From Wenzhouxiangella sp. XN24 (lineage in GTDB: Bacteria; Pseudomonadota; Gammaproteobacteria; Steroidobacterales; XN24): 64,000 nucleotides of DNA. Positions 1 through 10,254 of this stretch are shown piece by piece (within the stretch, counting starts at the first letter, position 1; the number at the start of each line of letters is the position of its first letter). The position numbers were made by a program, and so were the translations under genes. The notes under the pieces are model-generated. The model saw nothing but the letters and a program-made list of their open reading frames with translations, was not told the DNA's origin and did not search any database. The stretch lies in the NCBI RefSeq assembly GCF_011064545.1, contig NZ_JAAMFG010000034.1:372001-436000 (forward strand), in the 5' to 3' direction.

Positions 1-292
1 CGAAAATTCAATCCAGCTCGCTAGCTCGGAAGAGTGGCTTTCAGCACAGAGCCAGAATGTTGCAACGATAAAGAAGACGGAGAGGGATCTCATCGGATAT
101 TACCCGGCATGTCGACCACTTGCTTTCAGTCTGACTTACCCCGAATTGATACGGTAGTGACCAAACTCAGTCCCTGCAGATGACAATTGTCACAGCCGAC
201 TTGAGTGGTCAGCTGCCTTGGGGCAAGGAATAGTCCGACCAGTCGTTCGCGAACATCAAATATGCTTCCTCCGTGACACCGGACTTCTATCG
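1..292. other. Left edge stretch, no supported gene
   Basis: This stretch lies downstream of the class D beta-lactamase. On the plus strand a frame is open from the window edge (base 2) to a TAG at 155-157, giving 51 codons that could be the end of a gene lying outside the window. I do not recognise the peptide, and its length is compatible with chance at this modest GC content. Nothing else here is supportable. Confidence 0.25.
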
Positions 293-1093
293 CTAAGGTA
301 ATGCATCCACGGACCTGAGGACTGCCCGCCCAATCTTTTCTCTTTTGGCAAGGTCACTCAGGCGATCAGGCGTATCGATATTGAGCGCAAAAAACACCGG
401 CCCTGTTGGCCATTCGATCCATCCAACCCACCAGCCCATTGACCCCTCCCAGCCAGTCTTCGCACGGAGAATCCAGTGACGTCCGGCCTCAACGATCATG
501 ATGTCTTTCACTAAACGTTGATGCTCCACAGAGAATGGAAGTGCGTTCCGGTAAAGACGCTCCAACATCGCGATCTGCTCGTAGGCTGATATGGCAAGGT
601 TGCCATCCACCCAATAGCTCCCATCTTGGACCGTCGGATCCGCATTTCCATACGCTATCCGCTCCAGGTATTCCCGAGCTCCTTGAACGCCGATTGCGTT
701 CGCGAATTCCTGGTAAACCCAAATCGCAGAGCTGCGCATCGCCGAGCGCAGGTCCTGGTCGCGATTATGCTGTGCAAAACTCCGTTCAATCCCATCCCAC
801 GCAAAAACTTGAAATTCATCTCTGACAACTCCCGCATCAAGAGCGAACAAGGTGTGCACTATCTTGAAAGTTGAGGCGGGTGAGAACCTCACGGCCGCGC
901 GCTCGGGGGCATATACAAGAAGCTCACCTCCAGCTCCCTCGCCCTGAGTGGAACCACGGCGATCCGCTACGACAATAGTTCCCGTAGCGTCTTCATTGTC
1001 GAAGAACTTTTCCCAATCAGGGCGCTGCTGTCCAGCACCGATCGCGAGCGATGGCGTAGCGAATACCAATAGCGACAACAACCGAAGGAGCAT
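293..1093 (-). CDS. Class D (OXA-type) serine beta-lactamase
   Basis: Hydrolyses beta-lactams in the periplasm through an acyl-serine intermediate. All class D landmarks are present in order: STFK at residues 74-77 (nucleophile Ser74 and the lysine that is carboxylated in this family), SAI at 122-124 (the SxV element), YGN at 148-150, a Trp at 161 in the omega-loop region and KTG at 212-214. Residues 1-20 form a signal peptide. The open frame reaches an ATG at 1120, but the ATG at 1093 follows a strong GGAGG 6 bases upstream and begins directly with the signal peptide, so I use it. Length of 266 aa matches OXA enzymes (about 260-275). It lies 119 bases after the AraC-type gene on the same strand, so shared transcription is possible. 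The family call is secure; the substrate spectrum, including any carbapenem activity, cannot be read from sequence. Confidence 0.92.
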   Translation of the reverse strand: MLLRLLSLLVFATPSLAIGAGQQRPDWEKFFDNEDATGTIVVADRRGSTQGEGAGGELLVYAPERAAVRFSPASTFKIVHTLFALDAGVVRDEFQVFAWDGIERSFAQHNRDQDLRSAMRSSAIWVYQEFANAIGVQGAREYLERIAYGNADPTVQDGSYWVDGNLAISAYEQIAMLERLYRNALPFSVEHQRLVKDIMIVEAGRHWILRAKTGWEGSMGWWVGWIEWPTGPVFFALNIDTPDRLSDLAKREKIGRAVLRSVDALP

Positions 1094-1115
1094 TGTTCCT
1101 CCACGAGACTGGCAG

Positions 1116-1145
1116 GCCATATGGACCGTGAACGTGTCAATTCAA
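1116..1145 (-). promoter_or_regulatory. Possible promoter of the class D beta-lactamase
   Basis: On the minus strand a TTGAAT (1145-1140) overlapping a perfect TTGACA (1140-1135) lies upstream of TATGGC (1121-1116). The TTGAAT/TATGGC pair has an 18-base spacer. The -10 match is poor, so this is only a candidate. Confidence 0.3.
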
Positions 1146-1212
1146 GGATTCTTTGTGACCGTACACACTGGTCTGTGACTCGGCCTCATTGAAACCTTGA
1201 CTCGTCACCGCA

Positions 1213-2157
1213 CTATAACTGCACGACGGGGACGCAGATGCGGCAGCCAAACCGCCCCTCGGCATCACCGGGCTTCAACCCGTCCGGGTAATGTTCAAAG
1301 CAGGGACGGTGGTCGAGCTGAAGGCCGCTGGATGGCAACCATTCCCGGAGCAGCGCCGTCCATGCATCACCAATCTCGTCCGGCGTGCCAAGAAAATCGA
1401 GTACCGCGTAGCGCCCTCCGGGCAGAATCGTGCGAAACGGACGCCGGGTCAGTAATAGTTCTTTAGGTACTTCGACGCAGGCATCGTAGCGGCACAGATT
1501 TTCAAGCGTGATGTTCTGATCGTCATGGCTCACGCCGAACAGCGGCCGCGTAGAGATATGGTTTTCTTGAAGCCACGGCGAAACGACCTCCTCCCAGAAC
1601 TTGCCGACGTTTCGGCCATACGGACCGGTATAGCGAAGGTAGGCGACCGAGGCAGGGCGCAGTGTGTGAATGCGGACTTTCATGGCGGACTCCGACATTT
1701 GGGGGAACACGACCCCATGATGGCGCCCACCTAAGCCCTCCTCATGACTGGGGTTGCTCCACGCTGGACTGGATTTGCTGAGTTCAGATCCTTCGTGAGC
1801 GTTCTCGATTCGCCAATAGCGAGGGGAGCTGATGAAACGTTTTTTGAATGCGCGCGAAAAAGCCTCCACGGACTGGAAACCCACACCCAGTGCAATGTCG
1901 GTCACGGAACAGGCTGGTTGCGTAATCAGCCGCGTGGCAGCCACCTCGAGCCGTCTGCGTCGGATATAGGCGCCAAGGCTCTCACCGACCAAGGCCCGGA
2001 ACAACCTGTGAAAATGGAAGGGGGAGAATGCAGCAACCTTGGCGAGGCCTTCGAGTTCGAGCGGTTCCGCAAGGTTGTCGTCAATGTATCCAAGAACCCG
2101 ATGCACGCGGAACTGGTATGCGGCGCGACTGGAGTCAGTAGGACTGTTTCCCTTCAT
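1213..2157 (-). CDS. AraC-family regulator with GyrI-like effector domain
   Basis: A Rob/SoxS-like transcription factor of 314 aa. Residues about 18-120 form the double helix-turn-helix of the AraC family, recognisable from the FSPFHFHRLFRALVGES and VGFQSVEAFSRAFKKRF stretches. Residues about 155-314 form a GyrI-like (SOUL/BmrR-type) small-molecule pocket, with the typical opening VRIHTLRPASVAYLRYTGPY. This domain order is that of regulators sensing lipophilic or cationic drugs. The ATG at 2157 has a GAGG about 10 bases upstream. It lies between the DUF1203 gene and the beta-lactamase, all on one strand. Targets are unknown; control of the neighbouring genes is an inference from position only. 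Confidence 0.88.
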   Translation of the reverse strand: MKGNSPTDSSRAAYQFRVHRVLGYIDDNLAEPLELEGLAKVAAFSPFHFHRLFRALVGESLGAYIRRRRLEVAATRLITQPACSVTDIALGVGFQSVEAFSRAFKKRFISSPRYWRIENAHEGSELSKSSPAWSNPSHEEGLGGRHHGVVFPQMSESAMKVRIHTLRPASVAYLRYTGPYGRNVGKFWEEVVSPWLQENHISTRPLFGVSHDDQNITLENLCRYDACVEVPKELLLTRRPFRTILPGGRYAVLDFLGTPDEIGDAWTALLREWLPSSGLQLDHRPCFEHYPDGLKPGDAEGRFGCRICVPVVQL

Positions 2158-2288
2158 TCAGTGATCGCCTCGCTTTGCGCTGAGTTTCATCGCCCAGCGA
2201 AACCCATGCGCGGGGCCTTGGGAAGCCAGATATCTGGCTGGCAGGGGAACGGCGAAAGAAAAGACAACGACATCACCCGTATTCCATG

Positions 2289-2780
2289 TCAGCGCACACC
2301 CGTGGCGCGAGCAAAAAAACACCCGGCCGCCGCGAAATGGATATCCACATGACTGACGTGTTTGCTGCGAAATATATCTTTCAGGCACGAATCCAGGCTC
2401 GGTCCTTCGACCAGTTCCGCGGTCACCATCATTGCCTCGTGGTCGAACGCGCGCACCGATAACGACCGGCCAAGTAAACACGGGGGTATTTCTCCGACAC
2501 GGGAAAAACGTTCCACGCAGCCCTCAAGAACGAAGATCGCATGCGATGACCGGTATGGAGAATGCACCGCCATGTGTTCGTAATTGACAAGTATGATGCT
2601 GGCGTTCAGCGGCGCATCTCGCAGTGAGATCCGGTCTGGGAAGCCCGGTTCGGAGTCGACGCGCAGACGCCTTGCACGATGAGCTGCCAGCCCCGCATCA
2701 TCCCGGCCCCAGAGATACTCGAACCTGCGAGGATCCAGCCCTTCTATCTTGTAATCCATGTTCAGCTCCACACTTGCCAA
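2289..2780 (-). CDS. DUF1203 family protein
   Basis: A 163-aa cytoplasmic protein of unknown function. The family signature is clear: an N-terminal YKIEGLDP-like start, a PGFPDRISLRDA segment, VNYEHM followed by SPYRSSHAIFV, then LSVRAFDHEAMMVTAELVEG and a C-terminal VDIHFAAAGCFFAR. These invariant blocks define DUF1203, a small protein family common in proteobacteria and actinobacteria. It sits alone between the ABM-type monooxygenase and the AraC regulator, separated by 117 and 131 bases, so it may be separately transcribed. No catalytic role is established for the family. Confidence 0.82.
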   Translation of the reverse strand: MASVELNMDYKIEGLDPRRFEYLWGRDDAGLAAHRARRLRVDSEPGFPDRISLRDAPLNASIILVNYEHMAVHSPYRSSHAIFVLEGCVERFSRVGEIPPCLLGRSLSVRAFDHEAMMVTAELVEGPSLDSCLKDIFRSKHVSHVDIHFAAAGCFFARATGVR

Positions 2781-2897
2781 GGCGCCCGTTCAACGCACCC
2801 GTCCTGCGGCGAAGTCCTACGGAAAGTGACAAGTCGGTCGAGTGGCTAATTCCGCGGGCCAGACGGAAATCACCTCTTCTGCCCGCGTGTCGGCAAT

Positions 2898-3377
2898 CTA
2901 CCTGGGTGTAAACATCGGGACCGCTGTTTCCCCCGGTCCATCTTTCCTGATCGCCTTTCGGAGCCTCGCGGAGACCGTGCCACCAACCGGTGTTGTCTCG
3001 AACCGCTCACCGAATGTCCAAATAAGTGACCGGCCTTCCGAGATCGCATCCTGAACCGAAGGGACAGAGAGCGATGCCTCGTGGCTTTCCTTATTCTCCC
3101 AGACCTCCGTGACCCATAGCGCATCTTCGTCCTGCAGGTCATACGCCACGATGTAGCTGAGGCAGCCAGGCATACCGCCAACCCCATCAATCAGCACCCT
3201 GGCCAGGGCTTCTCGCTTGCCGTGTAAAGCGATAATTTTTCCCAATAATCCGAACATTTCATCTGGTCTCCTGGTCGAAAACACTCCGACTCCCATCAGG
3301 GCCACCGCACCACCCGCGAGCGCGAACATGAATGCTCGCCTTGCCGGCGAGTCACACTCGGTTTGTGCCCTAGTCAT
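2898..3377 (-). CDS. Exported antibiotic-biosynthesis-monooxygenase (ABM) domain protein
   Basis: A 159-aa protein whose residues about 41-130 form an ABM/YgiN-type ferredoxin-like domain, starting with the canonical FGLLGKIIALHGKREAL and containing the CLSYIVAYDLQDEDALWVTEVW strand pattern. Members are cofactor-free monooxygenases acting on quinols or polyketides. Unusually, about 40 residues precede the domain: an ARRAFM twin-arginine-like motif and a hydrophobic run (ALAGGAVALMGVGV), indicating export or membrane anchoring. The ATG at 3377 overlaps the upstream serine-hydrolase stop as ATGA, which supports this long start over the internal Met at residue 41. Translation is probably coupled to the hydrolase. 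A C-terminal extension of about 25 residues is charged. Substrate unknown. Confidence 0.75.
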   Translation of the reverse strand: MTRAQTECDSPARRAFMFALAGGAVALMGVGVFSTRRPDEMFGLLGKIIALHGKREALARVLIDGVGGMPGCLSYIVAYDLQDEDALWVTEVWENKESHEASLSVPSVQDAISEGRSLIWTFGERFETTPVGGTVSARLRKAIRKDGPGETAVPMFTPR

Positions 3378-4765
3378 ATACAGGACTTACGGGCAAGGGC
3401 CAGTACCCTGCGCTCGAAGTCACTGAATACGTCGGTGTCAGGGTTGTACTGTGGCGAGCTTTCAACCATGCGCACGGCGACCAGTCCTGCTGCAGGGAGT
3501 ACCACCAGATACTGGCCGAGGTATCCCCGCGCGCTATAGCCGATGACTTCCTCACCATCCCGGACCAGCCACCAAAGCAGCCCAACCTTATCGGTCAGTT
3601 CGGAACTGGGCTGAATACTCTCGTCGAACCACTGCTCGTCAATCAGGCGCGCACCGGCCCACTCACCTCGTCGGATGACAAGCTCACCAAGCGTGGCGAG
3701 ATCACGAGCATGGATCTGCAGACCTGCCATTCCGTGCGGGTTTCCAGCGCTGTCGCGTGACCAGCTGAAATCGGTAATGCCAAGTGCACTAAACAGGTTG
3801 TCACGCAGGAACTCGTCGAGTGGCTGACCCGAGGCTCGACCTATGACTCCGGCGAGCAGATTCGTTGCGCTATTGTTGTAGACGAAGCGTGTGCCAGGCC
3901 TCTGTACGATCGGCGACTCGAGAGCGAACCTGACGAAGTCATCACTCTCATAGATCGGATGCGTTGGCATGGGCGAAAACAGCCCTGAAGTGTGGGACAA
4001 CAGGTGACGGACGGTGATCGATTCGCGCCCCCCGGAACTCCATTCACGATAGAAATCATGAACCGGGACGTCTATGGATTCGAGAAGCCCCAGCGTTAGC
4101 AATCGGCCGATAGCCAGGTTCAGGATTGATTTCGTGGCGGACATCGCCTCGATCCTTCGGCTCTCGCCTTGGGCGTACCACTCGCCGACGAGCTTTCCAT
4201 TCAGGTTGATGACCATAGCCGTCGAGCCGCTGGCGGCGGCCGCCGTCACCATACATTCCAAGGCGGTTGGGTCAACGCTTTCCGCGGCTGGCCCTACCGT
4301 CGTTTGCTCCAGCGTGGTAATGCGCGCTGCGATCGCTGCTTCACGCTCGGCCCGTCTCTTCTCTCGCTCGACGAGGTAGCCCTGCCAGGCAACAGAGTTC
4401 TCGCGAACAAGGCGCATCGGGACGGCACGCTCACCCTGATCGTGCAACACCAGCGTGCCACGCGCTTCGCCGTCATGGACAGTGCCGCGAAATATCCGCG
4501 CGGGCGTAATGCGCATGACTAGAACATCTCCGTCTAGCTCGACGGACGCTATCGGAATATCAAGCACACCTTCGGCCGGAAGCGAAAAGGTGCCGGTCAG
4601 TCGTCCGTTTTCGCGATTGAGCGAGATCAGCACTTCGCTGGCGTCAGGGGCTTCCCCGAGTTCTCCCTCCCACGTGCCTTCGTATGTTGGCGTGAACAGT
4701 TCACCTGATGCAGTCTGTGCACCGAGCGTAAGGACTATCAATGCGATATGGGTTAGATGTTTCAT
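3374..4765 (-). CDS. Exported serine hydrolase of the class C beta-lactamase/esterase family
   Basis: A 463-aa protein with a signal peptide (residues 1-22), a beta-rich N-terminal domain of about 100 residues, and a PF00144-type domain. The catalytic SATK (SxxK) lies near residue 210, followed by HTSG, and the YNN of FVYNNSATN fits the YxN element. The family includes penicillin-binding enzymes, DD-peptidases and esterases, and sequence does not decide between them. The frame opens at a TTG at 4786, but the ATG at 4765 has AGAGG at good spacing and begins the signal peptide. It follows the FAD monooxygenase by 30 bases and overlaps the ABM gene by 4, so the three probably form one transcript. 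Confidence 0.83.
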   Translation of the reverse strand: MKHLTHIALIVLTLGAQTASGELFTPTYEGTWEGELGEAPDASEVLISLNRENGRLTGTFSLPAEGVLDIPIASVELDGDVLVMRITPARIFRGTVHDGEARGTLVLHDQGERAVPMRLVRENSVAWQGYLVEREKRRAEREAAIAARITTLEQTTVGPAAESVDPTALECMVTAAAASGSTAMVINLNGKLVGEWYAQGESRRIEAMSATKSILNLAIGRLLTLGLLESIDVPVHDFYREWSSGGRESITVRHLLSHTSGLFSPMPTHPIYESDDFVRFALESPIVQRPGTRFVYNNSATNLLAGVIGRASGQPLDEFLRDNLFSALGITDFSWSRDSAGNPHGMAGLQIHARDLATLGELVIRRGEWAGARLIDEQWFDESIQPSSELTDKVGLLWWLVRDGEEVIGYSARGYLGQYLVVLPAAGLVAVRMVESSPQYNPDTDVFSDFERRVLALARKSCI

Positions 4766-4795
4766 TGAGTTGCCTCTTGGAACCAAAAACAGGGT

Positions 4796-5995
4796 TTAAG
4801 CCGGCGCAGGAGTGATGGGTTCATGCCAATCAACGCGGTAGTCATGTATCCACGCCAGCCTTTCTTCTGTCGCGAACAGACGTAAAGCGATCGGCATCAT
4901 CAGATCCCTCAGCCATGCTGCCGCGCGATTCGGAGGAGCCTTGTAGTTTCCTCGCTGCCGACCCACCGCGACGATTCGCTCTGCACGCGGCTTGCGCAAA
5001 GCCTCGTAGCGTTCCAAAGCCGCTCGTGTCGGGGCTAGATCACGAAGGCACTTCGCCAGGACTAACGCATCTTCTATGGCCAGCGAAGCGCCCTGCCCTG
5101 CGCTTGGTGATACTGCATGAGCTGAGTCACCGACCAGGACCGCACGCCCGCGATGCCATCTGGGGATTGAAGGGATATCATGAATCGGCGCAACCCAAAT
5201 ACTCGGCGCGCGGCGAATGAGATGGGTGATGTAGGCAGGATCTGCCGAAAACAGCTCCACGAGCTTCTGGCGCCAGCTCGCCATGGAAATTTCATCCAGC
5301 TCGTCGCGTTTCGGTTCGCTCTTGTGCCCAATATTGGCAAACCACCAGGCTTCCCCGTCATCACGTACCGTGTAACCGAAGAACGCGCGACGCCCCCAGA
5401 CCATACGCATTGTGTCAACCGTAGGTTCAAGGCCAGAGTCTCGAACAATGCCCCCGAAATTCAACAGGCCCGTATAACTCGGACCAGGCGCAATAGGCGA
5501 CATGATTTGTCGGACACGCGAATGAATTCCATCGGCACCGATCAGCAGGTCCGCACACGCCTCGGTCCCGTCAGTGAAGCGTGCCGTGACCGAGTCACTT
5601 GCCACTTGGTAGGTTAAGAGCCGCTTGCCGTAGTGAAACTGAACTCCTTTTGATTGCGCGGCCACTGCGAGGGATTCCTGCAGCGCGCCTCTTGAGATGG
5701 TCACACTGGGGATTCCGTCACGCAGGCTGCCGTTGCAAACAATCCCTAAAAGTTGGCCTGCAGCATTCCGGAACTCCGACCTCGGGGTCGGGATCGTCTG
5801 TTCACGAAGGACCGGCTCCAAGAGGTCCAATTCATCGAGCGCGCGCATTCCATTGACGCCGAGCCCCAAGAAGAGACCCGGCGATTCGGGTTGTCCTCTG
5901 CGGGCTTCGTAGACAGTTGCTTCAATACCAATGTTTCGCAATGCCATTGCCGTCACGGGGCCCGCGATTCCTGCGCCGATTATCAATACCCGCAT
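4796..5995 (-). CDS. FAD-dependent aromatic-type monooxygenase
   Basis: A 399-aa flavoprotein hydroxylase of the PHBH/TetX class A group. The ADP-binding GxGxxG (IIGAGIAGP) is at the N-terminus, the LLIGADGIHSRVR (DG motif) near residue 160, and the GRAVLVGDSAHAVSPSAGQG (GD motif, ribityl binding) near residue 290. Such enzymes use NAD(P)H and O2 to hydroxylate aromatic or polyketide substrates; TetX relatives inactivate tetracyclines, but nothing here identifies the substrate. It heads the three-gene unit with the exported hydrolase and ABM protein and lies 267 bases after the TetR-type gene on the same strand. A purine-rich GAAGAGGGAC precedes the ATG. Confidence 0.87.
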   Translation of the reverse strand: MRVLIIGAGIAGPVTAMALRNIGIEATVYEARRGQPESPGLFLGLGVNGMRALDELDLLEPVLREQTIPTPRSEFRNAAGQLLGIVCNGSLRDGIPSVTISRGALQESLAVAAQSKGVQFHYGKRLLTYQVASDSVTARFTDGTEACADLLIGADGIHSRVRQIMSPIAPGPSYTGLLNFGGIVRDSGLEPTVDTMRMVWGRRAFFGYTVRDDGEAWWFANIGHKSEPKRDELDEISMASWRQKLVELFSADPAYITHLIRRAPSIWVAPIHDIPSIPRWHRGRAVLVGDSAHAVSPSAGQGASLAIEDALVLAKCLRDLAPTRAALERYEALRKPRAERIVAVGRQRGNYKAPPNRAAAWLRDLMMPIALRLFATEERLAWIHDYRVDWHEPITPAPA

Positions 5996-6262
5996 GTCCC
6001 TCTTCTTCCTCTCTAGATCAGGCCATGGCCAAGGTAGGATTCGCTCGGTTTTGCGACCGGTCTATCGGTACGCCGTGGGCCGGAAAATACTGAAGAGAAT
6101 CGGATTGGCGTACTTGACCGTACTTGCTTTTTTCGGACCATGACCACGCGCGATGGTGGTCCAGGTCGGATGCTCGTCTTTCGATCGCGGCCGAAAGCCG
6201 CCAATGATTCCCCTCGGAATGCGCGGTACATCATGGCAACTCGCTCTCCATTTCTCAGCCAA

Positions 6263-6910
6263 TCAATTGGCCAGACCGCGCAGCAACGCCGATAGTCCGC
6301 ATAAGAAATCCACCTCTCCGGGATGCTGAGCCAGGTGTGCAGCATGCCGTCGCGTATGCGGAAAGTTGGCAGCGGGAAGTCTGGTGTTTCGCGCGTGCGC
6401 ACGTGCCTGACGGTCCGTTCGATCAGGTTCGTTGAGCCGAGCCGCTTCCAGGGCGACGTGTCCTAGCGTGTACGCCAATAGAGCGCGGACAGCGCGCACC
6501 CCGTCGTTGCCGCGGATGCCCCCCTCATCGAGCCAAGCGAGCATTTTTTCGCCGAGAGCGACGGCCACAGGACCGCCGGGCCGACTCAGGAAGGCCGGAG
6601 CAAGCGTCGGGTGCGACAACACCGTTGAGCGCGTGGACAGCATGAGCATACGAAGACGTGCATCCCAAGTTGATTCTTTATCCCCGGGGATCGTGATGCC
6701 TTCGAGCACACGCTCGAGCATTGCCGCGAGCAAGGCGTCCTTGTCCGCCACATAGGTATATAGCGAGTTAGGAGCGACGCCGAGCCGTTCGGCCAGTTTT
6801 CGCATCGAGAGCCCCTCCAGCCCTTCCGAGTCCGCCAACCTGAGAGCCATCTCCAATATGTATGTCTGGGAGAGTCCGGCCCTCTCCCCCCGGCCGCGCA
6901 TATTCGCCAT
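6263..6910 (-). CDS. TetR-family transcriptional repressor
   Basis: A 215-aa repressor. The N-terminal helix-turn-helix spans about residues 10-60 (ILEMALRLADSEGLEGLSMR then LAERLGVAPNSLYTYVADKD), typical of TetR proteins, and the remaining all-helical part is the ligand-binding and dimer domain. An upstream TTG at 6922 keeps the frame open, but the ATG at 6910 has GAGGAC 8 bases before it and is preferred. The gene is divergent from the dienelactone-hydrolase-type gene at 7032, and a 21-base palindrome lies between them, which fits autoregulation plus control of the neighbour. It may also affect the downstream FAD monooxygenase unit. Ligand unknown. Confidence 0.87.
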   Translation of the reverse strand: MANMRGRGERAGLSQTYILEMALRLADSEGLEGLSMRKLAERLGVAPNSLYTYVADKDALLAAMLERVLEGITIPGDKESTWDARLRMLMLSTRSTVLSHPTLAPAFLSRPGGPVAVALGEKMLAWLDEGGIRGNDGVRAVRALLAYTLGHVALEAARLNEPDRTDRQARAHARNTRLPAANFPHTRRHAAHLAQHPGEVDFLCGLSALLRGLAN

Positions 6911-6960
6911 GTTGGTCCTCAAACAATCACCAGCTTTTTGGGATTGTTCCCGTCGTTATC

Positions 6961-6981
6961 ATATTGTACAGTGTCCAATAT
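6961..6981. promoter_or_regulatory. Candidate TetR operator palindrome
   Basis: A 21-base odd-centred inverted repeat, core TATTG-TACA-G-TGTC-CAATA, that matches its own complement except for one symmetric pair and the central base. It lies 51 bases before the TetR-type start and 51 before the divergent hydrolase start. Its size, symmetry and placement are those of TetR-family operators. On the minus strand a TATGAT overlaps its edge, so binding there would block transcription of the regulator itself. Confidence 0.68.
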
Positions 6982-7031
6982 AGCACGATTTTCTATGCCC
7001 AGGAATCATCAATCTGTGCTGAGGAGTTGCC

Positions 7032-7616
7032 GTGTCGCACGAAATCGTACTTTTCCATTCCGTCCTTGGACTGCGTCCCGCGGTAACACGCTGGGCCGAG
7101 TTGTTGCGCGCCGCAGGGCACACCGTGCACACCCCGGACCTTTACGACGGACAGGTGTTTGATGGATACCCGGCAGGGCTGGCGTTTCTCGACTCGATTG
7201 GCGGCATTGAGACATTGATGGCGAGAACGCGGGCGGCTGTCATCGATCTGCCGAAGGACGTCGTTTACGCTGGATTCTCCAATGGCGGAGGGTCGGCCCA
7301 ATACCTGGCACTTACGCGACCCGGTGCCCGCGGCATCATCCTTTATCACGCGGCACTCCCGCTTGAAGCCTTTGGCACCGCCTGTTGGCCCACGGAGCTT
7401 CCAGTGCAGATTCACTATGCAGAGGAGGATCCCTTTCGTGACCCCGCCAATGAAGAGGCACTCCTCAATGCCGCCAGGCAGGCCGATAGTCGAGGGGAGC
7501 TCTGGATCTATAGCGGCGATGGACACCTGTTCTCCGACCCTCAACTGCCGGACTGGGATGCTGCCGCCGATGCCCTAATGAAAGAGCGCACGCTGGCGTT
7601 CCTCGACGCGCTGTGA
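7032..7616 (+). CDS. Dienelactone hydrolase family protein (serine nucleophile)
   Basis: A 194-aa alpha/beta hydrolase. The nucleophile elbow is GFSNGG with Ser83 where classical dienelactone hydrolases have Cys, the acid is probably Asp133 (EEDPF) and the base His165 (GDGH). The length and the LFHSVLGL...WAELLRAAGHTVHTPDLYDG opening fit the short DLH branch. The start is GTG at 7032 with GAGGAG just upstream. It is divergent from the TetR-type gene with the palindrome between them, so it is the most likely regulated target. Family members cleave lactones or small esters; the substrate is unknown here. Confidence 0.85.
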   Translation: MSHEIVLFHSVLGLRPAVTRWAELLRAAGHTVHTPDLYDGQVFDGYPAGLAFLDSIGGIETLMARTRAAVIDLPKDVVYAGFSNGGGSAQYLALTRPGARGIILYHAALPLEAFGTACWPTELPVQIHYAEEDPFRDPANEEALLNAARQADSRGELWIYSGDGHLFSDPQLPDWDAAADALMKERTLAFLDAL

Positions 7617-7843
7617 GGTCACCGTGCGGCGGCACTACTCGTATGCAGGCGCACGCGTCGGCCAAGCATCGCGGGTTTTGGGTCCGCCAATCCGCAAGCG
7701 TGATCGAGCGTTTAATGATGGTGTTGTTCAACAATTTCCATTTCCAGACGCCGCCATGAATCAGCTTTTCGGCTTTGCAAGCCCCGGTTTTTTGCTTCGT
7801 GCAGGGTGATGGACGATAGCCGATGGCAAGGAGAGACCACGAG

Positions 7844-8542
7844 ATGTGTGGTATCAGGACGATCAATTTCCACTTGATGAACCTGATGATTATTGCAGTG
7901 GCAACGTGGTCCTCACAGCACACGGCAGCCGAAACTCAGATCATTGATCCCGCCCCGAATTTCGCATCTCTTGTTACTGAGGGAATCGAAGAAGAGGATG
8001 CAGACCTGGGGTTCCATATGTGGACGGAGCATGGCGATTTCGTCGCACTGCTACCTGGACTATCGGCTCATGACGAGCAATCACGCCCGATCCTGGGTTC
8101 AACACGGCTGCATCATTCGGAGGCAAGGCATTATCCGCCAGGGGGCGCGGTCGATCTTTTTCCGTCACATGATGCAGTGGTTGTGCAAGTCACCGCCTTC
8201 GTGGGCGCAGACGCAGTGGCTCCATCAGTTGTGCGGACGTATTTCGCCGGGATGTTCGATAACAACCCGCTCTCCGAGTCCCGGCCGGGCGGGGAGCACC
8301 TTGGCGCGGGCCGCGACTCGGAGCCCGAATGTGCAAAACACATTGATGCGGCATTAGCAGAACTCTCTCTGTTCCTTTCACGCTGGAGCTGGGATGCCGT
8401 CAGACACTTTGCCGCACGGGACACCCTCACGGGATTCGTAAGCGAAACCTATTGCGCCGGCTGGCACCTTTTCCGTCGCGTTTTGGCTAAAGTTCGGGTT
8501 GTCGGCGAACGCGTGCAGTTCTCTGGCCTGCGGATCAGATAG
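7844..8542 (+). CDS. Hypothetical protein, possibly secreted
   Basis: A 232-aa frame from the ATG at 7844, which has AGGAGA about 8 bases upstream; the frame itself opens at 7823. Residues about 10-30 are hydrophobic (NLMIIAVAT...), followed by a polar, acidic region, suggesting a weak signal peptide. I recognise no family. Codon use is less GC3-biased than in the core half and like the other left-side genes. The last 40 residues read less convincingly than the rest, so the gene may be frameshifted or end earlier. It follows the hydrolase gene by 227 bases that hold nothing I can identify. Confidence 0.4.
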   Translation: MCGIRTINFHLMNLMIIAVATWSSQHTAAETQIIDPAPNFASLVTEGIEEEDADLGFHMWTEHGDFVALLPGLSAHDEQSRPILGSTRLHHSEARHYPPGGAVDLFPSHDAVVVQVTAFVGADAVAPSVVRTYFAGMFDNNPLSESRPGGEHLGAGRDSEPECAKHIDAALAELSLFLSRWSWDAVRHFAARDTLTGFVSETYCAGWHLFRRVLAKVRVVGERVQFSGLRIR

Positions 8543-8603
8543 GTCCTCCAACAGCGATCACGCGAGGAAGCGCGTTGCGGTCCCGAAGCCCGAACCCTGT
8601 GCT

Positions 8604-9674
8604 TCACGCACGGCGCGCCGCATTCCATGCAATCCGGCTTTCGAGGTCGATGAGCTTCTGCTTGCGCCAGAGCCCGCCGCCGTAGCCGGTCAGGGAACCG
8701 TCGGCGCCGATTACGCGGTGGCAAGGGATGACGATTGCAATCTGATTGGCCCCGTTTGCGCGGGCGACGGCGCGGGCGGCCGTGGGCTGCCCGATGGCGC
8801 TCGCGATGTCGAGGTAACTGCGGGTCTCCGCGACGGGGATCCGCTGCAGTTCATCCCACACCCGGCAGGTGAAGGCGCTGCCGTGGCGCGTGAGAGGCGT
8901 CTGAAAGTCAGCACACTCGCCACGGAAGTACGCTGCCAGTTCCGTTGCGATCTGTTCGGTGGGTTCATAGCGACCGATCCCGATGCGGCCTTTTGCAAAG
9001 TCGCGCAGCTTGCGCAGTTCCGATGGCAGGGCACGCCGGTCGGCGAACTCCAGCAGGTGCAGGGTCTTGGGATCGGCCGCTGCGACCATGGGTCCAAGGG
9101 GCGTCTCGACCCAGTCGCACAGGAGGCCCTTGCCGCGGGCAAATCGCGTCGGCGCCTCCCCGAGCAGGCGTGTGAAAGCGGCGCGAAAGCCGCTGGACGA
9201 GTCGAACCCCGCGTCGAGTTGGGCATCGATGACCCTGCCCCCCGCGGAGAGCGAGCGGAAGCCCTCGCGCAAGCGATGGAGCCGCGCCATCTCAAGGAAC
9301 GTGATGCCAAAGTGGCGGCGGAAGGCCCGCCGGACAGTTGACGGGTCGTAACCCGCATCCGCCACATCGCTTTCAGTCCAGCGCCGCCCGGGGTTATCGA
9401 GTAGCCGCCGCATGAGTTCGCCCACCTGAGGGTCGGTCTCAGCCGTGGGGGTCAGGGGGTGGCAGCGCTTGCAGGCTCGATACCCCGCCTCAAGCGCTCC
9501 GGCAGCCGTCTCAAAGAACTGGCAGTGCTCGCGCCTGGGCTTGCGAGCCGGGCAGGTAAGCCGACAAAAGATGCCCGTAGTCGTTACGCCCACCCAGGCG
9601 CGCCCCTCATACCTAGGATCCCTCGCCACCAGGGCCTCGTAGAGGACTTCGTTGCTGGGAAGTTGGAAGCGCAT
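8604..9674 (-). CDS. ada: Ada: methylated-DNA sensor regulator and O6-methylguanine-DNA methyltransferase
   Basis: A 356-aa bifunctional protein of the adaptive response. Residues 1-75 form the zinc domain with Cys37, Cys41, Cys68 and Cys71 (E. coli 38, 42, 69, 72); Cys37 should accept methyl groups from phosphotriesters and turn the protein into an activator. Residues about 85-180 form the AraC-type DNA-binding domain, and the C-terminal methyltransferase carries PCHRVIG with acceptor Cys318. Length equals E. coli Ada (354). The ATG at 9674 is preceded by AAGGAAGC. It is the last gene before the tRNA-Gly junction and appears monocistronic, with no alkB or alkA alongside. Confidence 0.95.
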   Translation of the reverse strand: MRFQLPSNEVLYEALVARDPRYEGRAWVGVTTTGIFCRLTCPARKPRREHCQFFETAAGALEAGYRACKRCHPLTPTAETDPQVGELMRRLLDNPGRRWTESDVADAGYDPSTVRRAFRRHFGITFLEMARLHRLREGFRSLSAGGRVIDAQLDAGFDSSSGFRAAFTRLLGEAPTRFARGKGLLCDWVETPLGPMVAAADPKTLHLLEFADRRALPSELRKLRDFAKGRIGIGRYEPTEQIATELAAYFRGECADFQTPLTRHGSAFTCRVWDELQRIPVAETRSYLDIASAIGQPTAARAVARANGANQIAIVIPCHRVIGADGSLTGYGGGLWRKQKLIDLESRIAWNAARRA

Positions 9675-10178
9675 GCTTCCTTTATACCCTACCGTCTCAG
9701 CGCATTTGCGCCAGTTTTCGGGCGTGTATTTTTTTGAGCCGGCCCGTCGGCGATCCGGATAGCGAACTTCGATGGGCCCCCATCAGCCACCCCCTTATGC
9801 CCCAGCCTTCGGCTTGGTCGAATCAACAGGGACGCCCTGCTCGTCATATCCGCTATCGCTATGAAACACCACGACCCAAGGCCAGCCTGCCTCCCCTGCC
9901 CTCGGGCCACCGAAAGTCCTGTCAATTGCGACCATTGGACAGCGGGATCACTGCCACGATGCTGAACTTCGGGAGGACACGAGAACGAGAAGCGAACTGA
10001 TCAGGGGAATCCTGTGCAAAAAAAGGGCTCTGGCTTTACGGCCAGAGCCCTTTTGCTATGCGCTACACTACCGAGATTGCAGGCCAATCAAGCGTGCCGC
10101 CGACCGGAACATCTTCTGCGAGCGTTTTTAGTACTTTTTTGGTACTCGCCAGCACGGCACGTGTAAGTCATTGAAATC
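9675..10178. other. 504-base gene-free stretch between ada and tRNA-Gly
   Basis: It holds the hairpin terminator at 10021-10054 and, at about 10120-10140, an imperfect inverted repeat AGTAC-TTTTTTG-GTACT near the tRNA 3' end. Short frames here have no family resemblance and no good ribosome sites. It may be the scar of an insertion at the tRNA, but I found no copy of the tRNA 3' end and no integrase remnant. Confidence 0.6.
10021..10054 (-). terminator. Rho-independent terminator of tRNA-Gly
   Basis: A perfect 14-base-pair stem (AAAAGGGCTCTGGC paired with its complement) with a 6-base loop. Read on the minus strand it ends in a run of seven T, so it terminates transcription from tRNA-Gly 125 bases upstream. 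It also has a shorter T run on the plus strand and could work both ways. Confidence 0.85.

Positions 10179-10254
<76 letters not shown>

Follow-up and report, generated by a model that had tools for sequence, protein, structure and literature searches.

In the TetR/tetO system of Tn10, the operator is an odd-centred palindrome by the promoter of its regulator, and the divergent target gene is that of an efflux pump. The locus described here, located in the window (the whole 64,000-base stretch of Wenzhouxiangella sp. XN24 DNA that was analyzed), shares with this system the domain architecture, kinship in sequence, a divergent target gene and, in the operator predicted here, the odd-centred palindromic form. 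It differs from it in both recognition helix and operator sequence, its target would be a hydrolase rather than an efflux pump, and its regulator, scoring 73.4 bits where the cut-off is 265, falls outside the tetracycline repressor equivalog NF010319.

A search among solved structures places SimR (2y2z, SimReg2) and ActR (2opt) of Streptomyces among the sequence relatives of this regulator. For ActR, PMC3511530 reports repression of the divergent gene, and for SimR PMC5812520 describes repression of the divergent gene, release by the ligand and two operators. The targets in SimR/simX and ActR/actA are exporters, in contrast to the presumed hydrolase target here, and the two operators of SimR compare with one in the window. 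More broadly, Ahn et al. (2012; PMC3511530) report that the five TetR-family regulators which they tested at less than 200 bp from a divergent gene all repressed that gene. The actinobacterial TetRs L051, L068 and L182 (helix VAPNALYSHV or VAPNALYSYV) have the operator core, the helix type and a divergent alpha/beta-hydrolase in common with the window, while differing from it by two operators, a hydrolase of another family and a regulator identity of about 42-44%.

The inverted repeat and its flanking genes

Between the divergent regulator and hydrolase genes (Table 1) lies a 21-base inverted repeat whose arms (6961-6970 and 6972-6981) flank one central base and pair at nine of ten positions (90% complementary), the sole mismatch being T versus C at +/-4. 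Outside the repeat pairing stops, the next outward bases (C/A, T/G) being unpaired. This bears out the near-perfect, odd-centred repeat of a preliminary description, and the location it had given as almost midway between the genes is exactly so, with the centre at 6971 lying 61 bases from each best start codon. The TATGAT it had reported does lie on the minus strand by the palindrome, but it overlaps the latter by three bases instead of touching it.

How much does the symmetry itself tell? Dinucleotide shuffling of 6923-7031 (109 bases; n=5,000) produced an odd-centred 10+10 repeat of nine or more pairs in 0.28% of cases, and such a repeat at any spacing from 0 to 10 in 2.2%. As odd-centred repeats of equal quality number ten in the whole window, with three to four in each of three shuffled windows, symmetry alone is modest evidence. 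The search for further genomic copies that had been suggested at the outset found the palindrome only once in its own genome at up to three mismatches; no second site was found elsewhere in the 64,000 bases, nor, at up to three mismatches, any second core beyond 6961-6981 in the vicinity (6900-7040).

Both domains of the regulator score above gathering, TetR_N (PF00440) with 40.8 bits (cut-off 24) and TetR_C_1 (PF02909) with 57.7 bits (cut-off 21) in a match covering 2-143 of 146 positions, which assigns it to the TetR_C_1 branch of the TetR family. The open reading frame list starts the gene at TTG 6922; we prefer ATG 6910 because the GAGGA (6920-6916) precedes it at a fitting distance. The divergent gene, whose start lies 121 bp from that of tetR, encodes a member of the DLH family (PF01738, 52.7 bits, cut-off 21). 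Dienelactone hydrolases in the strict sense have a cysteine nucleophile; the nucleophile-elbow-like motif found here, GFSNGG, has a serine, setting the protein outside this narrower class. Since no two-hexamer sigma-70 promoter was matched in 6850-7100, the promoter is unproven. On the other side, 267 bases separate tetR from the FAD monooxygenase gene, and no promoter-like or terminator-like match was obtained in 5950-6330.

Table 1. Features of the locus, in coordinates of the window
Feature	Position	Strand	Basis or remark
Class D beta-lactamase	293-1120	-	260.4 bits, above the class cut-off of 250
FAD-binding monooxygenase gene, downstream of tetR	4796..5995	-	Pfam PF01494, 104.4 bits
TetR-family regulator gene (tetR), 215 aa from ATG 6910, recognition helix VAPNSLYTYV	6263..6910	-	Pfam PF00440, PF02909
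Ribosome-binding-like GAGGA of tetR	6916..6920	-	read before ATG 6910
TATGAT, possible -10 of the tetR promoter	6958..6963	-	sequence reading; three-base overlap with operator; no -35 match
Predicted TetR-type operator, 21-base odd-centred inverted repeat ATATTGTACAGTGTCCAATAT	6961..6981	.	symmetry, motif comparison
Operator core TGTACAGTGTCCA (minus strand TGGACACTGTACA)	6965..6977	.	equals the site before tetR in L051 and L068
Ribosome-binding-like GAGGAG of the hydrolase gene	7021..7026	+	read before GTG 7032
Dienelactone-hydrolase-family gene (DLH), 194 aa, GTG start	7032..7616	+	Pfam PF01738

Recognition helix and site in related regulators

The best relatives of the regulator are actinobacterial. 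In the Pseudonocardiaceae, the family of a Kutzneria, relatives were present in 242 of 249 genomes, from which 90 loci were chosen non-randomly (the top 30, the 45 ranking directly below them and 15 from farther down). Together with the window, L004, L017-L019, L043 and the plasmid regions L160-L163, these make up 100 counted rows; left out were the copies of the window (L001, L020, L074), the pattern loci of its own genome (L075-L099) and weak relatives with tblastn E >1e-6 (among L003-L016 all but L004). Rows were sorted by aligned recognition helix, with L162, whose helix is unreadable, counted among the other helices, and TGKACRNTGTMCA was scanned from -250 to +60 of the start.

All 28 rows with a helix of the type x-A-P-N (hereafter APN) carry TGKACRNTGTMCA at no more than one mismatch (27/27 without the window), and 27 of them carry it exactly (26/27 without the window). 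Among rows with other helices, the site is found in 6 of 72 at this tolerance and in 0 of 72 exactly; the six are L117, L123, L125, L129, L153 and L157, with L153 (VYPTALYWHI) having two sites at one mismatch. Control stretches inside the same genes gave 0/100, and shuffled upstream regions 10/5,000. A Fisher test of helix against site yields 8e-19, a value to be read in the light of the APN regulators forming one clade, so that the 27 APN loci amount to few independent events, far fewer than the rows counted. Indeed, a tree of 98 rows (L004 and L162 dropped) unites the APN regulators, including that of the window, in one group with a support of 98/88, where the long branch of the window's regulator may, following a warning of the tree tool, join the VAPNALYSHV group falsely.

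With its x-A-P-N helix and upstream TGKACRNTGTMCA site, the window belongs to the APN-helix TetR group. It stands apart in operator number: each of the 27 other APN loci has at least two sites, 18-39 bases apart (19-23 bases in 22 of the 27), the window a single one, for which its long, nearly perfect arms perhaps compensate.

A divergent ORF of at least 100 aa, picked by length and third-base G+C, is present at all 28 APN loci. At the VAPNALYSHV loci it matches Pfam Hydrolase_4 in 18 of 20 cases (E <=0.01), some of the scores, where shown, lying below the gathering score. As the hydrolase family differs and a profile comparison of these hydrolases with the DLH of the window was not significant, we regard the TetR-hydrolase pairs of the relatives as analogous, not orthologous. 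On the level of sequence, the theme of an APN TetR, its operator and a divergent alpha/beta-hydrolase-like enzyme thus recurs with different enzymes. At the seven YTYF APN loci (L044-L049, L052), the divergent gene encodes a conserved protein, hydrophobic by eye, with a DUF4386 match in one of the seven and a weak Yip1 match in one.

A motif learned without the window

Because the scan pattern TGKACRNTGTMCA was derived from the window, a palindromic motif was also learned de novo without it, from the 27 APN upstream regions (best of 60 starts, two widths). This motif, ACTGTAC[AG][CG][CT]GTACAGT, puts the window site first among 63,984 positions, with 23.8 bits against 8.0 for the runner-up. 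So do the motifs of the two APN sub-groups, YSHV (20 loci; 23.1 versus 8.6) and YTYF (seven loci; 14.0 versus 8.8, the runner-up overlapping the site). The motifs of four other helix classes place the site 754th, 59th, 34th and 56th; that of the [AG]PM-with-YTYF class, in which a GTAC element is common with the APN motif, also ranks it first, by a small margin (11.4 versus 9.5 bits).

In the reciprocal direction, the DNA pattern TTGKACRSTGTMCAA was detected in 6 of 394 actinomycete genomes, and its reversed control in 4. A TetR match within the 3-kb stretch is found at L182 alone, the other five of the six lacking one. The site at L182, ATATTGGACAGTGTCCAATAT, is the same as that of the window in 20 of 21 bases, and its palindrome, as the only one among the six matches, reaches 25 bases. 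It lies beside a TetR that has both TetR domains, the helix VAPNALYSYV and 42% identity to the regulator of the window; a second core with one mismatch follows 20 bases on, and the divergent ORF matches alpha/beta-hydrolase models. The original reading of the repeat as a TetR operator is thus supported both by the top rank in the window-free motif and by this twin site.

In the own genome, TGKACRSTGTMCA at up to one mismatch gave 30 strand matches, the operator being exact and all others having one mismatch; as these are fewer than the 47 of the reversed control, we claim no wider regulon. Exact cores are also few in ten APN genomes, where each genome has between 2 and 8 strand matches; together they have 45, versus 19 for the reversed control.

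The helix classes for which de novo motifs were obtained, each comprising between 5 and 27 related loci, have a common odd-centred core, A-C-R-N-Y-G-T. At +/-6, 5 and 4, the bases by helix are T-G-K for A-P-N, Y-G-T for [AG]-P-M, C-T-T for E-A-M, C-G-A for T-G-[AP]-A, C-G-N for [GA]-A-T, and G-C-T for D-P-M, this last row resting on five loci and a weak motif (10.3 bits mean). Upstream of tetR, palindromes of their own with the A-C-R-N-Y-G-T core occur at L059, L061, L064, L070 and L132, and likewise at E-A-M, T-G-[AP]-A, [GA]-A-T and D-P-M loci.

Distribution and genomic setting

An orthologous TetR-DLH pair was not found in searches of relatives, class, phylum or plasmids. The regulator gave distant matches only, whether it was sought in 59 relatives, in the class (369 genomes) or in the phylum (398 genomes). 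None of 18 TetR loci of the phylum has an APN helix, and the core site occurs at one of 18 proteobacterial loci, L167, whose helix (VFPTALYWHM) is non-APN and which yet has the core exactly, at -159. Three relatives with the helix VNPM have no site, and the 21-base pattern at up to one mismatch is confined, among the 398 phylum genomes, to the own genome. For the hydrolase, the best match in the 59 relatives outside the own locus has an E-value of 3.9e-9 at 30% identity. Beside six DLH relatives on plasmids (43-49% identical), no TetR is annotated and tblastn detects no counterpart of the present one. A plasmid search with the intergenic DNA was likewise negative, and a DLH scan among viruses found nothing. 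At L164, L169 and L175, proteobacterial TetR relatives whose neighboring FAD monooxygenase is 28-32% identical to that of the window, strong palindromes of another type are present, TGGAACGYCGTTCCA in L169 and L175.

Over its first 9 kb the window has 56-60% G+C, compared with 62-72% beyond, and a tRNA-Gly gene is located at 10179-10254. This step in composition and the adjacent tRNA-Gly make a lateral arrival of the low-G+C block (1-9700) plausible, and the block looks like a genomic island. It comprises an AraC/GyrI-like regulator, an OXA-type enzyme, a serine beta-lactamase-fold protein, the FAD monooxygenase and the TetR-DLH pair. A neighboring OXA-2-like gene and Cass2-like domain had suggested an integron, but no attC core pairs turned up in 1-9700, nor any 25-base direct repeats, and the idea was dropped. 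The class D beta-lactamase is nearest to the OXA-2/OXA-46/OXA-20 group, with 403 bits in the OXA-2 model, below its cut-off of 590. It is 66% identical to OXA-21 from a plasmid, 70% to OXA-119 and 68% to a beta-lactamase on a plasmid of [Synechococcus] sp. NIES-970, and may possibly be related to the stock behind this mobile group.

Discussion

What, then, is the role of the palindrome? Its motif recurs upstream in distant relatives that share the DNA-reading helix, so it is very probably the DNA docking site of the adjacent TetR repressor. We further consider it highly likely, on comparative grounds, that it is the autoregulatory operator of this TetR_C_1-type repressor and that the divergent hydrolase gene is repressed from it as well. 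A repressor dimer with Ala-Pro-Asn recognition helices would read the odd-centred core T-G-K-A-C-R-N-Y-G-T-M-C-A and, bound to the single operator, would block both the tetR promoter on the minus strand and the hydrolase promoter on the plus strand. Both promoters would be released once the C-terminal domain binds a small ligand, which might be an ester or lactone akin to the substrate of the hydrolase. We infer the control of the hydrolase from the start-to-start gap, which fits the under-200-bp rule, and from the relatives, which are divergent to alpha/beta-hydrolase-like ORFs. The locus may moreover have arrived by lateral transfer and would regulate only itself and its neighbor.

The reach of the operator could be larger or smaller than this. 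It might govern a larger unit, with the FAD monooxygenase and the genes behind it served by read-through from the tetR promoter: tetR and the monooxygenase gene lie on the same strand, and a FAD monooxygenase adjoins the TetR in three of 18 proteobacterial relatives (L164, L169, L175) and in actinobacterial L069. However, the gap behind tetR and the lack of a second site in the window speak against such an extension, which we regard as doubtful. Conversely, the site could serve autoregulation only, with the hydrolase as a bystander, since what is conserved is the association of site and regulator, and such DLH genes occur without this TetR alongside in the six plasmid regions. This is improbable given the 121-bp gap between the divergent genes, at whose very midpoint the operator lies, the repression of the divergent gene in the cases reported by Ahn et al. 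(2012; PMC3511530), and the alpha/beta-hydrolase-like ORF kept in the divergent place in 18 of 20 relatives.

That another regulator than the adjacent TetR binds the palindrome is very improbable, as the sites that it matches belong to TetRs with the very same type of recognition helix, and no second relative of this TetR turns up in the own genome at E <=0.001. That the symmetry arose by chance in A+T-rich intergenic DNA, a view to which the ten repeats of such quality in the window lend some color, is hardly credible for a site that a window-free motif ranks first by about 16 bits and that recurs nearly identically beside a related TetR.

The preferred reading, an operator for both regulator and hydrolase, describes a switch of an ordinary and known type, the divergent TetR type, with comparative support that is unusually good. 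The correspondence between helix and operator may be new: neither the motif nor the helix-operator table was seen in the literature searched, most subscription papers lying outside its scope, and a search with literal core strings brought up nothing related. For the uncharacterised repressor-hydrolase switch, our analysis offers one exact, testable predicted operator, and the switch would be a possible sensor part if its ligand is found. Whether the recognition helix predicts the operator within this branch of the TetR family is in our judgment evenly balanced. If true, such a helix code would allow operators, and with them regulons, to be predicted from protein sequence for many uncharacterised TetRs of this large branch.
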